A stretch of 64,000 nucleotides of DNA from an uncultured Phycisphaerales bacterium. Its GTDB lineage: Bacteria; Planctomycetota; Phycisphaerae; Phycisphaerales; UBA1924. The stretch is taken from assembly GCA_937995595.1 (NCBI GenBank), contig CALKJW010000034.1:1-64000 (forward strand), given 5' to 3'. A model generated the notes under the pieces. It worked only from the letters and a program-made list of their open reading frames with translations, searched no databases and was not told the origin of the DNA. Positions 24,183 through 30,674 of the stretch are shown here, piece by piece. Made by a program: the position numbers and the translations under genes. The first letter of the stretch is position 1, and the number at the start of each line of letters is the position of its first letter.

Positions 24183-25403
24183 TCACGCCGCGAGGTCGTC
24201 GTCGCCGTCGTCCTTGGGCGGGTCGCCGATGCACCCCCACTTCTCCTTGGGGAGGTGGCGGTGGTGGATGTGGATGACGCGGGCGAGTTGGGCGGCGAAG
24301 ACCTCGCCGATCATCCGCAACTGGTCGAGCAGCAGCGGGCCGAAGGGCGACGTGCGGTCGCGGAAGAGCATGACGATCGCGAGCACCTCGCCCTCGTGCC
24401 GGCACGACATGCCGACGACGCCGGAGTCTCCCAGCCACGCGGCGTCCTCGCCGACAAAGCGTCGCAGCGACTCGTCGGTGGTGAGGTGGACGAGTTTCTC
24501 GGACGGCTCGAACTTGGGCGCAACAGTGTTGGCGATGTGATCGAGCAGGATGTCGACGGTCTCCTTGGGGCAGTCGTAGTTGACGTAGGCGCCCAGGGAG
24601 TAGTCGCCGCTGGTCGTCGGCAGGAAGACCGCCGCGTTGGTCGGGCCCGAGCGGGCCAGCACAAACTCGAGCGTGCTCCGCAGCAACTGTTCGATGTCCA
24701 GTTCGTGCCGGATCAGGCTCGTGAACTCGTTGGCGGTGGTGACCTGGTTCATGTTCGCCATGCACTCCGTTGTGGCGTGAACCAGATCGGTGCAAACCGG
24801 GGGCTGCTGTCGGGCCGTGTCGGTGCGCGGCGAGCGGTCGCGTCGGCACAGACGGTCCAGGCTTCGCAGCCCGCGCGGGCCGCGCGTCCGCGCGGCCGGA
24901 TCGCCCGCCCGACCCGCCGCGCGGAGCAGCCGGGCGCGAATTTCGAGGACGCGCAAGCCGTGCGCAAACACGCTCCGGCAGCCCGAGGCCCGGGCGCGAC
25001 GGGCCAGCCGCGCCGTCGGTCTGCGGGCCGTCAGAGCCACCGAGGGCCCGTGGCCCGCCAACCGCTCCGCCAGTTCCAGCGCCGCGTCGCCAAGCGCGTC
25101 GGCGTCGATGACGGCCAAATCGCCCGGCGCCTCGCACGTGATCGACAGCGCTTCGTCGTACGTGCGCGCCAGTACGCACAGCGCGCCCGGCCCGGCGGCC
25201 CGTCGGACGCGGGCCACGACGACCGGGTTGTCGGTGACGATCAGCACGCGCAGCGCGGGCGGGGCGAGGCGGGTAGGCCGGTCGCGCCCCACGCGCTCGA
25301 TCAGCGGCCGCATGGGCTTGAGTTCGAAGCACCCCGGCCACGGGCGAACGACGGTCCGGCGTGCGGGTCCGCGGTTGGATGACGAGTTGCCGACTCGAGC
25401 CAT
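24183..25403 (-). CDS. pseudo-receiver/GAF-domain signalling protein
   Basis: A 406-residue protein, third in the signalling run. Residues about 53-160 look like a receiver fold (LRVLIVTDNPVVVARVRRAA, LAVIDADALGD) but lack a convincing phosphoacceptor and lysine, so it is probably a pseudo-receiver. After an Arg-rich linker, residues about 220-385 form a GAF-type sensor domain (QLLRSTLEFVLARSGPTNAAVFL, VVGMSCRHEGEVLAIVMLFRDR). The tail has HIHHRH and an Asp run. ATG 25403 has AGGAG seven to eight bases upstream. An internal ATG at 24761 (MANMNQ, with GGAG upstream) could also make a free GAF protein. The ligand is unknown. Confidence 0.78.
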   Translation of the reverse strand: MARVGNSSSNRGPARRTVVRPWPGCFELKPMRPLIERVGRDRPTRLAPPALRVLIVTDNPVVVARVRRAAGPGALCVLARTYDEALSITCEAPGDLAVIDADALGDAALELAERLAGHGPSVALTARRPTARLARRARASGCRSVFAHGLRVLEIRARLLRAAGRAGDPAARTRGPRGLRSLDRLCRRDRSPRTDTARQQPPVCTDLVHATTECMANMNQVTTANEFTSLIRHELDIEQLLRSTLEFVLARSGPTNAAVFLPTTSGDYSLGAYVNYDCPKETVDILLDHIANTVAPKFEPSEKLVHLTTDESLRRFVGEDAAWLGDSGVVGMSCRHEGEVLAIVMLFRDRTSPFGPLLLDQLRMIGEVFAAQLARVIHIHHRHLPKEKWGCIGDPPKDDGDDDLAA

Positions 25404-25446
25404 GGAGTCTCTCCTCGTTGAAGGGGTCCGTCGAGCGACGTCCCGC

Positions 25447-27351
25447 TCACGCGGCACGCTGCGCGCGTGGTTCGTTCAGCGGCGCGATTGTCGCGACGGG
25501 CGCGGGCCCCGCGGCGGGCGCGCTGGTCCAGCGGTAGTCCGGCAGCGCGACCGTGACGGTGGTGCCGCGGCCGGGGCGGCTGGCCAGCAGCACGTCGCCG
25601 CCGTGCAGGCGCACGAGGCGGTGGGCCAGCGCCAGGCCCAGGCCGGGTTGCCTTCCCGCGGGCTTGTCGGAGAAGAACGGGTCGGTCGCGTGCTCCAGCG
25701 CGTGCTCGCTCATGCCCGAGCCGTCGTCGATGACGTGGACGAGCAGGCGCGTCGGGTCGACGCCGTCCTCCTGCACGCGGACCTCGACCGGCGAGCGCGG
25801 GCCCGACTCCAGCGCGTTGACGACGACCTCGGTCATCGCCTCGGCCATAAGCGCGGCGTCGATCCGCAGCGCGCCCAGTCCCTCGGCGATCGTCAGTTTC
25901 ACGCCCGTCAGGCCCGGGAGCGCGCCGCCGTCGCCGGCGCGGGATGCGCACCGGGACCGGGCACGCTTGATGACTTCCTCGAACAGCGCGGCGGCGTCGG
26001 TCGGGCGCAGGTCGGGCTCGGGCGGGTTGGCGATGCGGTGCAGACGCGCGATCAGGTCGCTCAGGCGGCCGGCCGCGTCGACGATCGCGCGGGCCGCGTT
26101 GCGGTCGGTCTCGTCGCGCAGGCGCGAGGCGAGCGACTGGGCACGGCCCGAGATGACGGCGAGCGGGTTGTTGAGTTCGTGCGCCGCGCCGGCGGTCATC
26201 TCGCCGAGCCGCGCCATCGCGCGGGTCTCGGCCAGCTGGCGCTGCGCCTCCTCGAGCGCGCGGTTGGTCTCGGCCAGTTCCTGGTTCAGACGGCCGAGCC
26301 GCGCGTTGGCCCGCAGGATCGACTCGACCAGCAACTGCTGGCTCGGCTCCTCGCCGAGGCCCAGGTCGCGGCAGCGGGCGCTGGTCGATTCGTACAGCCG
26401 CGCGATCTGCCCCTCGATCCGCGGCCAACTCAGGCCCACGCGTTCGGCCAGCGCGCGGTCGTCGGGATCCGCGGCGTAGTTGCCCGACCAGCCCAGCCCG
26501 AGCCGGCGGCAGAGCGCGTCGGCCACGCCGACCACGCCGACCAGCGATCGGTGCTCGCCCTCGGGCAGCCGGTCGAACGGCGTGCCGTGCCCCGCGATCG
26601 TCTCGCGCAGCGCGGGCGGCAGACCCCACAGGTCGGCCAGCCGCGCACCGGCCGCGAGGTGGTCCATGCCGAGGATCGGCCGCTCGAAGTCCGCGATGTT
26701 GCCCTGTCGCGATTCGGCGAGTTCGACGACGCGCGAGTAGGCCCGCGGCAGCACGACCTCGAGGGCGAGTTTGCCGAGGTCGTGCACGAGCCCGCAGACG
26801 AAGCACTCCTCGGGGTGCAGGCCGAGTTCGGGGTGCTCGCGTGCGATGAGTTCGGCGGCGCACGCGACGGCGATCGAGTGCTGCCAGAACCCGGTGCGGT
26901 TGAAGGGCTGCGCCGGGGCCGCGCCGGGGCGCGGCTTGCGGCCGGCGCGCGGCGACAGGTTGCCGCTCCAGTCGAAGATCGCGACGCTGAGCACCAGCGA
27001 GCGCACCGCGTCGAGGCCGAGCATGACCACGGCCATCTCGACGGTGGTGATGGGGTGGCGTGTGCGGTTGGCGGCGCGCCGGCAGAGCGACAGCAGGCGG
27101 GCGGTGATGGTCGGGTCGGACTCGATCAGGCGGATGACGTCGCGGACCTCGGCGTCCTCCTGTGCGCCCAGTTGCATGAGCCGGGCGGCGACGGTGGGCA
27201 GGGTCGGCAGCGCGCCCAGTTCGCGCAGCACCAGTTCGGTGCGGCGGGAGAGCAGCGGGTCGGCGGCGATGGCGGGGGCGGCGCGTCCGCGTGCCGCGGC
27301 CGCCGCGCCCGTCGCGCGCCCGAGGATGCTGGCTCTGCGCGACGGCGGCAT
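25447..27351 (-). CDS. HDOD-domain sensor histidine kinase
   Basis: A 634-residue fusion. Residues about 40-300 are an HDOD domain (LPTLPTVAARLMQLG, ESDPTITARLLSLCRRA, with GLVHDLGKLALE at 188-198). A coiled coil (about 341-380) leads into a histidine kinase. The phosphoacceptor is His391 in GAAHELNNPLAV. The ATPase domain has the N box around Asn512 (EVVVNALES), the G1 box DDGSGM (542-547) and G2 GLGLALA (570-576). No membrane helix is seen, so it is cytosolic. It sits between a receiver-HTH gene (45-base gap) and a GAF gene (43-base gap), its probable partners. Confidence 0.93.
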   Translation of the reverse strand: MPPSRRASILGRATGAAAAARGRAAPAIAADPLLSRRTELVLRELGALPTLPTVAARLMQLGAQEDAEVRDVIRLIESDPTITARLLSLCRRAANRTRHPITTVEMAVVMLGLDAVRSLVLSVAIFDWSGNLSPRAGRKPRPGAAPAQPFNRTGFWQHSIAVACAAELIAREHPELGLHPEECFVCGLVHDLGKLALEVVLPRAYSRVVELAESRQGNIADFERPILGMDHLAAGARLADLWGLPPALRETIAGHGTPFDRLPEGEHRSLVGVVGVADALCRRLGLGWSGNYAADPDDRALAERVGLSWPRIEGQIARLYESTSARCRDLGLGEEPSQQLLVESILRANARLGRLNQELAETNRALEEAQRQLAETRAMARLGEMTAGAAHELNNPLAVISGRAQSLASRLRDETDRNAARAIVDAAGRLSDLIARLHRIANPPEPDLRPTDAAALFEEVIKRARSRCASRAGDGGALPGLTGVKLTIAEGLGALRIDAALMAEAMTEVVVNALESGPRSPVEVRVQEDGVDPTRLLVHVIDDGSGMSEHALEHATDPFFSDKPAGRQPGLGLALAHRLVRLHGGDVLLASRPGRGTTVTVALPDYRWTSAPAAGPAPVATIAPLNEPRAQRAA

Positions 27352-27396
27352 GGACGGCGGTGCTCCGGATGGTGCGGGGCCGGCGCGGCGCGGCGC

Positions 27397-28005
27397 TCAG
27401 GCGGCCTCGGTGAGTTCGTCGATGCGCTTGAGCAGCGCGTCCACGTCGAAGGGCTTGCGCACGAAGTCGTCGGCGCCCGCGGCCTTGAGCGAGTCGATCT
27501 CCTCCGGGTTCACCACGCCGGAAACGAAGATGATCCGCGTGTCCTTGAGTTCGTCGTGCTCGCGGATGCGCCGGCACACGACGTTGCCGTTCACGTCCGG
27601 GAGCATGTAGTCGAGGATGATGACGTTGGGCCGGAACTGCTCGGTCATCAGGCCGGCGTCGTAGCCGGTCGAGCAGAAGCGGACGTCGTACCGGTCGTTG
27701 CGCGCGAACAGGTCCTTGAACATCTCGATGATCTGCTTGTCGTCGTCGACGACGAGCACGCGGCGCGCGCCCTGGTCCAGCGCGCCGACCGGGATGTCGT
27801 TGGCCCGCATGAACTTGATCAGTTCGGCGCGCGGGATGCGCCGGAACTTCGAGCCCGGCACGCGGAACCCGCCCAGACGGCCGGCGTCGAAGCAGCGGAT
27901 GATCGTCTGCTGCGAGACCTTGCAGATCTCCGCGGCCTCGCCGGTGGTGAAGATCCGCTTGCCGGCCCAGTCGCGGGCGTTGTGCTGTCCGTTTGAGCCT
28001 GCCAT
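27397..28005 (-). CDS. excisionase-type HTH fused to a receiver domain
   Basis: A 202-residue response regulator with an inverted domain order. Residues 17-67 are a MerR/excisionase-like winged helix (FTTGEAAEICKVSQQTIIRCFDAGRL, then RRIPRAELIKFM). Residues 82-200 are a full receiver: acidic Asp87-89, phosphoacceptor Asp132 in ILDYMLPD, Ser162 and Lys184 in RKPFD. Most response regulators have the receiver first. It begins the three-gene signalling run, so the kinase encoded next is its likely phosphodonor. A weak promoter-like pair (TTAAGT, 17 bases, GATACC) lies about 70-100 bases upstream. DNA targets are unknown. Confidence 0.9.
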   Translation of the reverse strand: MAGSNGQHNARDWAGKRIFTTGEAAEICKVSQQTIIRCFDAGRLGGFRVPGSKFRRIPRAELIKFMRANDIPVGALDQGARRVLVVDDDKQIIEMFKDLFARNDRYDVRFCSTGYDAGLMTEQFRPNVIILDYMLPDVNGNVVCRRIREHDELKDTRIIFVSGVVNPEEIDSLKAAGADDFVRKPFDVDALLKRIDELTEAA

Positions 28006-28175
28006 GCGGGCCTTCCGGGCGATCGGCGGGTGCGCGGCGCGCCGACCATCGGCGCGGCACGGCTGCCGGGGTCTGGTATCGACCCTTGCCCGTTCCGACT
28101 TAACGGCACAGTTTGTCCCGCCCGCCCCGCTTCACACGTGCGCCGGTCAACGCCCGAGAACCCGCGGCGGCGGCA

Positions 28176-28943
28176 TCAGCCGCCCCGCGCGCGGGCACGC
28201 CACTGCGTCACCGCGTCGGGCTCGCGCGCATAGACCGGCACAAGGTCCGCCGGGTCGATGTCGGGCAGCGAGGCCGAGGCCCGCAGGCACGCCGCCGCGG
28301 TGAGCAATGGCGCGCGGACCGCCACACCCTCGCGCGCGCACGCCTCGCGCACCGCCGCGGGCAGGTGCGCATCGCCGATCAACGCCCGAACGCCTTCGGC
28401 CGCGAGCGCCGGGACGTCCGCGGCGGAAAGCACGCGGCCGCGCGTCGCGTCGGGCTCACCCTCGACCCACACCCACGCGGTGTCGTTCTTGCTCGCGAGC
28501 GCAACGGCTCGCTTCTCTCCCGCGGCGCCGCGGTCGCCCGCGAGCGCGACCAGCGCGGTCGGCGCCGCCACGCACGCCGCGCCGCACCCTTCGGCAATCA
28601 TCTTGCCCACGGCGCAGGCCATGCGCAGGCCCGTGTACCCGCCCGGCCCGACACTGACGGCCACCCGCCCGCCGCGGAGATCCGCAGCGCGCAGTGCCAA
28701 ACGGGCGAACAGGCGATCGATCGCCGGCACAAGGTCGTCATCCCCCCCACCGGCGCCACCGCCTGCGGGCCGCGGCGCGGCTGCCCCGGCCGCGCGGCCG
28801 CGCGCGCCGGCGCGCACCGGCTCTTCGCCCAGCGGTTCGAGGGCGGCAACATCCGACCGTCCGATCGCGACGGACATGCCCGTTCCGTCCGCCGCGGCGG
28901 TGGGGTTCGAGGTCTCGATCGCGAGCGTGAGTCGGCCGGACAT
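28176..28943 (-). CDS. tsaB: tRNA threonylcarbamoyladenosine biosynthesis protein TsaB
   Basis: The ASKHA-fold partner of TsaD in t6A synthesis at position 37 of ANN-decoding tRNAs. The 255-residue product opens LTLAIETSNPT and contains GRVAVSVGPGGYTGLRMACAVGKMIAE (near 100-126), the family signature. An Ala/Gly/Arg-rich insertion (about residues 46-70) replaces the usual His-Ser-x-x-Leu segment before the helix, which is odd but within this family's variability. ATG 28943 was chosen at the first beta strand; the frame extends 11 codons further. TsaD and TsaE are not in the window. Confidence 0.88.
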   Translation of the reverse strand: MSGRLTLAIETSNPTAAADGTGMSVAIGRSDVAALEPLGEEPVRAGARGRAAGAAAPRPAGGGAGGGDDDLVPAIDRLFARLALRAADLRGGRVAVSVGPGGYTGLRMACAVGKMIAEGCGAACVAAPTALVALAGDRGAAGEKRAVALASKNDTAWVWVEGEPDATRGRVLSAADVPALAAEGVRALIGDAHLPAAVREACAREGVAVRAPLLTAAACLRASASLPDIDPADLVPVYAREPDAVTQWRARARGG

Positions 28944-29014
28944 GCCGCAACGATACGGCGCCGATTGCGCGTGCACGGCGCGGGCAGCCTCCCGCAGCGT
29001 AAACTCCGCGACCG

Positions 29015-29673: not shown

Positions 29674-30414
29674 TCAGCGGGCCCGCCGTCGCCCGGCGGC
29701 CAGCGCGCCCATGCCGAGCAGCACGACCGCACCCGGCGCGGGCACATCGACGGGGATGCGGAAGATCAGGAACTCGTCGTGGTTGAACCCGCGGAGCGGC
29801 GCGGGCATGAACGTCGAACCCGTGTCGTTGCCCGAGTCGTACCAGACCCACTGGGCGCTCTGATCGATGTTGGTGTAGTAGGTCCACGGGTAGAAGAACG
29901 GAGCGGTCGGCGTGGTCGGGTCGTTGTCGTATCCCGGCGCGCCGGTCGGCGTGACCCACAGGCCGTTGTTGGTCGCGTAGTTGATCGCGACATCGACCTG
30001 CGCCTGCGTCGCAATCTGGTTTGGGGGCCACGGGGCGGGCCAGTACGGGTTGGTCGCTTGGTACGCCCCCGCGGGGAAGACGGCCCAGTTGTTGTCGCCC
30101 GACAGCGCGACTTGATTGGTCGTCAGGTTGCGGAAGTCGGCGATCAAGCCCTGCGCGACCGCCTGGTCCGACGACGTGACGATGTACACGTACGACGTGC
30201 CGGGCGTGCTGGTCGCCGTGAAGTGGTACAGCGTGGGCCACGAAGCACCACTGCCGACCACCGAGCTGGTCGTCGTGACACCGGTGCCGAAGTACACGTC
30301 GAAGTAGTTGTCGACGGTGATGTACATCTCCCAGAGGTCGGCGTGCGCCGCCGAGATCGACAGCCCTGCGGCGACGATCGTCGCGCCTGCACGAACACCC
30401 ATGCGCATGAACAT
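29674..30414 (-). CDS. PEP-CTERM-type exported protein (PAPG variant)
   Basis: A 246-residue secreted protein. A signal peptide (MGVRAGATIVAAGLSISAAHAD) is followed by a Tyr/Thr/Asn-rich beta-type body (YVYIVTSSDQAVAQGLIADF, NNWAVFPAGAYQATNPYWPAPWPP). The C terminus has VPAPGAVVLLGMGALAAGRRRAR: a PAPG box in place of Pro-Glu-Pro, a membrane helix and an Arg cluster. That tripartite end is recognised by exosortases and suggests cell-surface or exopolymer sorting. The start ATG 30414 has AAGGAG about six bases upstream. No exosortase gene is in this window. Body composition is far less Arg/Ala-biased than neighbours. Confidence 0.87.
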   Translation of the reverse strand: MFMRMGVRAGATIVAAGLSISAAHADLWEMYITVDNYFDVYFGTGVTTTSSVVGSGASWPTLYHFTATSTPGTSYVYIVTSSDQAVAQGLIADFRNLTTNQVALSGDNNWAVFPAGAYQATNPYWPAPWPPNQIATQAQVDVAINYATNNGLWVTPTGAPGYDNDPTTPTAPFFYPWTYYTNIDQSAQWVWYDSGNDTGSTFMPAPLRGFNHDEFLIFRIPVDVPAPGAVVLLGMGALAAGRRRAR

Positions 30415-30674
30415 CTCTCTCTCCTTTCTCGACCGGCCCTTGCACACCCGACGCGCAAAGACGCCTGCGCGTCGGCCTATGCTCTGCCGATCTCTCTCCA
30501 CCGGCAGTATGCCTCAACGCAAGTGAAAATGCAAGGGCTGCACCCTGGTCGCAGCCCCGATCCGAAACTCACCACGAACCTCCGGCCCCTGTGCGGGCTC
30601 CGGTCTGCCTACGGCGTACGAACACGATCCGCCAACGCCCTGGCAGGCTCGTCAACCCTCAACCCAACAAGAGG

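Follow-up and report, generated by a model that had tools for sequence, protein, structure and literature searches.

A putative two-component system with a BldC-like response regulator, encoded behind a sigma28-type promoter in Phycisphaerae

What is controlled by a response regulator whose DNA-binding domain precedes its receiver, and whose gene lies beside that of an HDOD-containing histidine kinase? The question is raised by three adjacent genes on the reverse strand of a 64,000-nucleotide stretch (the window) from the 3.1 Mb draft genome of an uncultured Phycisphaerales bacterium. They encode an HTH_17-receiver protein (the regulator), an HDOD-HisKA-HATPase_c kinase and a third protein with receiver-like and GAF parts, and are separated by 45 bases (regulator to kinase) and 43 bases (kinase to third gene), counted from the assigned starts. 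An earlier note, made from the sequence alone, had described this same-strand cluster and its gaps, and its coordinates and domains are confirmed (Table 1). Absent from that note is what is the best clue to function, a sigma28-type promoter upstream of the regulator gene. We estimate at roughly two chances in three that the genes form a two-component system of their own within the flagellar (sigma28) regulon, in which the regulator would be a BldC-type protein that is gated by phosphorylation and acts back on its own promoter.

The view that these genes belong together is supported because their linkage persists from family to family within the order and, for regulator and kinase, also in other classes. 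The best 80 of 539 confirmed relatives of the regulator were compared; by title these loci come from planctomycete genomes or metagenome-assembled genomes (MAGs), except two labelled 'bacterium' only and one Vicinamibacteraceae. A match to the kinase profile lies at most 600 bases downstream of the regulator in 76 of the 80, far more often than chance would give, and the third gene is present in 61 of the 69 loci whose sequence runs on for over 4 kb downstream. Among the matches listed, the best named relative of the regulator is in the Phycisphaeraceae MAG ACE_PLA19 (93 percent), and the full set of three genes is present in ZRK32 and ZRK34, whose genomes are complete. Across 151 genomes of the order, which being related are not independent, 94 have the kinase (E <= 1e-60) and 135 an HTH-receiver protein (E <= 1e-30); the latter count takes in a second paralogue of about 40 percent identity.

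Beyond the order the linkage changes in composition. In other orders of the same class (families f7 and f9), regulator and HDOD kinase are kept together in 3/3 loci; a diverged third gene is present in f7 (L221) and absent from L222, and the sequence of L223 ends too soon. In other classes (f32, f73, f82), a kinase is the next gene after the regulator in 9/9 loci and matches the kinase part of the profile only; the four of these nine that were scanned with Pfam all have HisKA and HATPase_c and no HDOD. The third gene reached at least 280 bits, with the GAF part covered, in 11 of the 12 order members within a phylum sample of 246 genomes, and its best score outside the order in that sample was 105 bits, covering receiver and linker only. 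The three-gene system is old and conserved in planctomycetes. A literature search, with most subscription papers outside its reach, recognised no paper on it, in keeping with its place in the earlier note as the leading candidate for an undescribed system.

Family f4 speaks against a strict partnership of kinase and regulator: both are present, the kinase keeps the third gene, and the regulator lies about 70 kb or more away or on a separate contig. This arrangement would suit kinase and regulator being neighbours without being partners, the kinase serving another receiver, with either the third protein or the other HTH_17-receiver regulator as its true target. With adjacency in nearly all of the best relatives and in every other-class locus (though in only 1/8 of the still more distant loci L231-L238), and with both genes retained in f4, we regard such a division as quite unlikely. 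It had been suggested that a system would be contradicted if the two architectures proved unlinked in relatives; the relatives compared do not bear out that objection, f4 being an exception.

In OmpR/PhoB and NarL systems, a kinase with H, N and G boxes stands beside a receiver protein with the DD, D, S/T and K residues, and both sets are found here. The kinase has the phospho-acceptor histidine and the ATP-binding boxes of a two-component kinase (H391, N512, D542, G544, G546, G570 and G572 invariant in 28/28 aligned kinases), and the regulator has the DD, Asp, S/T and Lys of a receiver (D88, D132, S162 and K184 invariant in 48/48 aligned regulators, D87 in 46/48). Unlike in those systems, the DNA-binding domain is N-terminal and MerR/BldC-like, and the kinase has an HDOD input. 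Pfam bore out the order of the HTH before a complete receiver; this order, described earlier as unusual, is not unique to the locus. The same genome encodes another HTH_17-receiver protein (L081 10083-10664, C32), which has 34 percent identity to the regulator and no kinase among the neighbours scanned. Members of its group (about 40 percent identity) are common in the order, even where the first regulator is missing. The Colwellia structure PDB 3cnb, in which only the receiver is solved, has a receiver fold like the regulator's and is titled a merR-type (merR-family) DNA-binding response regulator.

The HDOD part of the kinase is related to known proteins, with residues 45-303 matching PDB 3hc1 by sequence. 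Unlike in MmoQ and other HDOD proteins (PDB 3ljx, 3hc1), HDOD is here fused to HisKA-HATPase_c, and its residues H158 (27/28), H190 (28/28) and D191 (26/28) are mostly retained; at the fourth position 26/28 have Asp and the window copy has Glu. The earlier picture of an HDOD domain joined to a histidine kinase stands for the architecture and for His391, and the direct junction that it implied is atypical. Because 26/28 aligned kinases have roughly 170-210 additional residues between HDOD and HisKA, where the window copy and that of G104 have only 29, the direct junction is probably a derived state. The extra stretch of the relatives (alignment A7) matched no Pfam family and had no significant match to a solved structure. 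A GAF domain was considered for it and is not supported, as Pfam finds none there and hhalign against the third-protein family gives a probability of 0.3 percent. The domains of the window kinase predict a soluble, cytosolic protein; the maximum 19-residue mean in a hydropathy scan is 2.05, a value for which a core helix could account.

The promoter is the feature that ties these genes to a regulon. Boxes like TAAAGT and CCGAT mark FliA-dependent promoters, and the window site (Table 1) is the only T.AAGT-N15-[CT]CGAT in the 64 kb. After near-duplicate removal, 127 of 157 regulator upstream regions remained, and AAGT-N15-CCGAT occurs in 56 of them at this single spacing, with gaps of 14-19 bases together giving 57 (shuffles: mean 0.7, maximum 3). 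The strict form T.AAGT-N15-CCGAT is present in 53/127 and the relaxed form T.AAGT-N15-nCGA in 87/127; shuffles average 0 and 0.55, and the reverse strand has none. By family, relaxed sites occur in 18/21 regions of f1 and 21/27 regions of f2-f6. Unsupervised motif finding also recovered this motif.

Elsewhere in these genomes the motif is found in front of late flagellar genes. The genome of the window has 7 strict sites against 0 in the backward control, 4 of the 7 lying inside predicted reading frames, and 16 relatives have 127 against 18. Of these 134 sites, 77 distinct ones were read, of which 29 fall inside predicted frames and 48 are free. A called protein follows 41 of the free sites; it is the regulator in 3, and 32 of the other 38 proteins were scanned. 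These comprise 3 flagellins, 1 FliS (in the window's own genome), 1 CheW, 1 methyl-accepting chemotaxis protein (MCP), 4 PilZ and 1 GGDEF protein, together 11/32; the rest are 2 prepilins, 1 receiver, 1 sigma-70 factor, 1 protein kinase, 4 unrelated proteins (Cas1, EF-P, a pyrophosphatase and DUF3644) and 12 that fall into no clear family. Upstream of the genome's own fliA, at a distance of about 700 bases, is another site, with a short unassigned frame between. The motif is common to flagellin and fliS, as similar boxes are in FliA-dependent late flagellar genes, and we read T.AAGT-N15-CCGAT as a predicted sigma28 promoter shared with those genes. As a side observation, sites of this type in several genomes also precede proteins of about 230-250 residues (L256, L284, L303, L306, L307, L309) that match no Pfam family and share, by eye, an N-terminal 'IGL' stretch; they are possibly an unknown late flagellar or appendage family.

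The distribution of flagellin agrees with this reading. Taking E <= 1e-60 as presence of the regulator, 108 of the 151 genomes have both flagellin and regulator, 1 the regulator without flagellin, 17 flagellin without the regulator and 25 neither (p 2.5e-16, with no correction for kinship; six of the flagellin-negative genomes are classed so by absence from the flagellin-positive list). All 94 kinase-positive genomes are flagellin-positive, and 25 of the 26 flagellin-negative genomes are without the regulator, the exception (G015) having the regulator and neither kinase nor flagellin. Within family f2 the same four counts are 10, 0, 11 and 24 (p 1.1e-4).

Several observations pull the other way. 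Outside f2 the association is not significant (98, 1, 6 and 1, in the same order; p 0.13), and there are the 17 flagellin-positive genomes without the regulator. The 15 bases between AAGT and CCGAT are one more than in the E. coli consensus; the sigma28 motif is in 0/9 regulator upstream regions from other classes; and the relocated kinase genes of f4 have neither a sigma28 site nor repeats in 3/3 upstream regions. FliA scored over the cut-off in 147/151 genomes, including most of the 26 flagellin-negative ones, and because it is present in flagellin-less genomes the promoter need not mean flagella. The ubiquity of FliA, the sites in front of unrelated genes and the sites inside reading frames would all fit a system with no special tie to motility, AAGT-N15-CCGAT being recognised by a sigma factor whose role is broader or of another kind. 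Against this stand the flagellin, FliS, CheW, MCP, PilZ and GGDEF products among the scanned downstream proteins and the flagellin association within f2, and we consider it unlikely. In flagellin-less genomes FliA may have retained a non-flagellar job.

The regulator promoters carry a second element. The same motif search returned GTnAAnnTgGGcAAnnTgGG, with a log-likelihood of 754 at width 26 against 116-132 in three shuffled sets (25 starts for the shuffled sets, sixty per width for the real data). Its repeat unit is a 9-bp direct repeat, AAnnTgGGc, and AAnnTnG recurs 41 times at a distance of 9 bases, 13 times at 18, 6 at 27 and 5 at 36, other distances occurring at most 4 times. In a held-out test limited to known families (27 training and 21 test regions, 79 dropped), a model trained on the 27 f2-f6 regions exceeded 12 bits in 10/21 f1 regions, in none on the reverse strand and in 3/420 shuffles. 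Both elements are present in 62 loci; in 21 of these the array starts one base ahead of the -35 box, and in 25 it starts directly behind the -10 box. In other classes, 3/9 upstream regions show AAnnTCGR twice at the same period (shuffle mean 0.005).

These repeats are specific to the regulator promoter among the sigma28-like sites compared: none of 45 other free sites has them, and of the three regulator promoters included in that comparison two have them, at 15.5 and 22.6 bits. A weight matrix trained on the same sequences that it scores finds a weak candidate operator in the window (Table 1) and gives 16.9 bits to the copy in the sister locus L101, a value reached by 0/2000 shuffles.

The third of those regulator promoters, at only 7.0 bits, sits poorly with a dedicated operator, and so do the genome-wide counts. 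Two-unit repeats gave 50 matches against 51 controls in 19 genomes, with no second target, and a longer pattern gave 128 against 74 backward controls in 17 genomes, from which we claim no further target. In the window's own genome, a free two-unit site at C5:152078-152096 (L329, L360), with no gene recognised behind it, scores 18.7 bits and so outscores the window promoter. Among 12 distinct free two-unit sites that were read, the promoter of the regulator gene itself accounts for 4, in four genomes, and the other 8 share no recognised gene. Those eight sites, and the second HTH_17-receiver protein in this genome and many relatives, would be expected if the repeats were bound by another BldC-like protein, for example that second protein or a nucleoid protein, with the regulator acting elsewhere. 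This seems to us improbable, as the regulator is the only gene that recurs behind free repeat sites, the other sigma28-like sites are without repeats, and the HTH is nearly unchanged across the same range of genomes.

The HTH of the regulator shares a Pfam family with BldC of Streptomyces, which binds 9-bp head-to-tail repeats (PMC5859096). BldC Glu16, Arg30, Gly44, Arg47 and Arg48 (PDB 6ama, 6amk) correspond to regulator Glu23, Arg37, Gly51, Arg55 and Arg56, all invariant in 48/48, a mapping made by eye from an alignment of weak E-value. The regulator resembles BldC in its HTH_17 winged helix, and its predicted sites are AT-rich 9-bp direct repeats; BldC consists of a single 68-residue domain and has no receiver, and the regulator adds a C-terminal receiver and a neighbouring kinase.

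Because the key BldC residues map to invariant positions within the same Pfam family, we prefer a BldC-like reading to a MerR-like or excisionase-like one. The label 'excisionase' given to this HTH earlier was misleading, in view also of the BldC-type repeats at the promoters of relatives. Against the likeness count the weak sequence match to BldC (E about 0.2), the higher score of a cobalamin-binding protein (8jbs) as a match to the HTH, and the loss of counterparts to BldC His46 and Trp31. Foldseek with the regulator model returned only receivers among the best 50 matches listed, so the likeness rests on sequence and repeats and not on fold comparison.

Two other identities for the HTH were rejected. 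A classical MerR regulator would have a coiled-coil dimerisation helix, which is not seen in the AlphaFold model (a short helix at 73-77 follows the HTH and leads to the receiver), and the repeats are direct, not palindromic. An origin from a mobile element (Xis of phages or integrative and conjugative elements, or RdfS) does not fit a gene pair conserved across the order, and no integrase family was matched among the nine neighbouring proteins of the window that were scanned.

We propose that FliA-type RNA polymerase would transcribe the regulator gene once the late flagellar genes are on, with the kinase and third gene presumably co-transcribed as an operon. The HDOD domain, in most relatives together with the further region, would take up an internal signal for the kinase, which would autophosphorylate on His391 and transfer the phosphate to the regulator at Asp132. 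This modification may then gate head-to-tail assembly of the BldC-like HTH on the 9-bp direct repeats. Lying on or beside the -35 or start region of the promoter, the repeats suggest repression; most simply, the outcome would be negative feedback on an operon of the flagellar stage.

A broader idea, which we offer tentatively and find somewhat doubtful, is that the regulator is a phosphorylation-switched filament former of BldC type and acts with the kinase as a checkpoint on the way out of or into the motile stage across much of Planctomycetota, one conserved output being joined to sensors that differ by clade (HDOD in Phycisphaerae, short kinases elsewhere). To our knowledge such a filament former would be the first in a two-component system, and we know of few developmental regulators for planctomycetes with swimming and attached stages. 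If true, it would show how a receiver controls a BldC-like oligomer; the system is conserved widely enough for tests in strains with complete genomes, and it supplies a DNA site that could be used directly in binding assays.

The third protein might serve as an accessory sensor or a decoy that tunes the kinase. Pfam finds in the window copy only a sub-threshold GAF (E 0.002), and in 30 family members Response_reg in 24, GAF_2 in 15 and GAF in 13. The AlphaFold model (mean pLDDT 82) has a receiver fold at about residues 47-165, a GAF fold at about 237-380 and a long helix between, and Foldseek matches receivers and GAF domains. The phospho-site Asp is present in 21/53 family members and the full D-D-K set in 4/53; in the window protein both Asp are present and His replaces Lys. 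'Pseudo-receiver', the term used before, is therefore fair for the family. The start of this gene is uncertain, with ATG at 25403 assigned and GTG at 25457 also possible.

Table 1. Features of the cluster, with positions in the window.
Feature	Position	Strand	Basis
Response regulator gene (HTH_17 then receiver), 202 aa	27397..28005	-	Pfam, invariant residues, AlphaFold pLDDT 89
Regulator N-terminal HTH_17 (BldC-like winged HTH), aa 19-69, E 7e-10	27799-27951	-	Pfam
Regulator C-terminal receiver (Response_reg), aa 83-195, E 5e-23	27421-27759	-	Pfam
Regulator phospho-acceptor Asp132 codon	27610-27612	-	Invariant residue
Histidine kinase gene (HDOD-HisKA-HATPase_c), 634 aa	25447..27351	-	Pfam, alignment A3
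Kinase HDOD, aa 48-257, E 1e-44	26581-27210	-	Pfam
Kinase HisKA, aa 382-438	26038-26208	-	Pfam
Kinase His391 codon	26179-26181	-	Alignment
Kinase HATPase_c, aa 499-605	25537-25857	-	Pfam
Third gene (degenerate receiver joined by a linker helix to GAF; no recognised output domain)	24183..25403	-	Pfam of family, AlphaFold, Foldseek, synteny
Predicted sigma28-type promoter TTAAGT-N15-TCGAT, one mismatch to T.AAGT-N15-CCGAT	28078..28103	-	Motif search; same site in relative L101
Weak candidate operator, 9-bp repeats just upstream of -35 box	28110..28135	-	13.2 to 13.6 bits; 1/2000 shuffles as good

The conserved neighbours of the regulator are the kinase, the GAF gene and tsaB. In the window a TsaB/YeaZ-like gene (28176-28976, reverse strand) lies directly upstream of the regulator gene on the same strand, and tsaB, the sole conserved extra neighbour, is upstream in 30/81 loci; we judge this neighbourhood incidental and no clue to function. 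The product of a gene farther along the window (29677-30501, reverse strand) shows a weak match to the PEP-CTERM sorting motif (Pfam E 0.006, which is below the cut-off). In other classes, genes that by eye look like mnmG lie close to the regulator.

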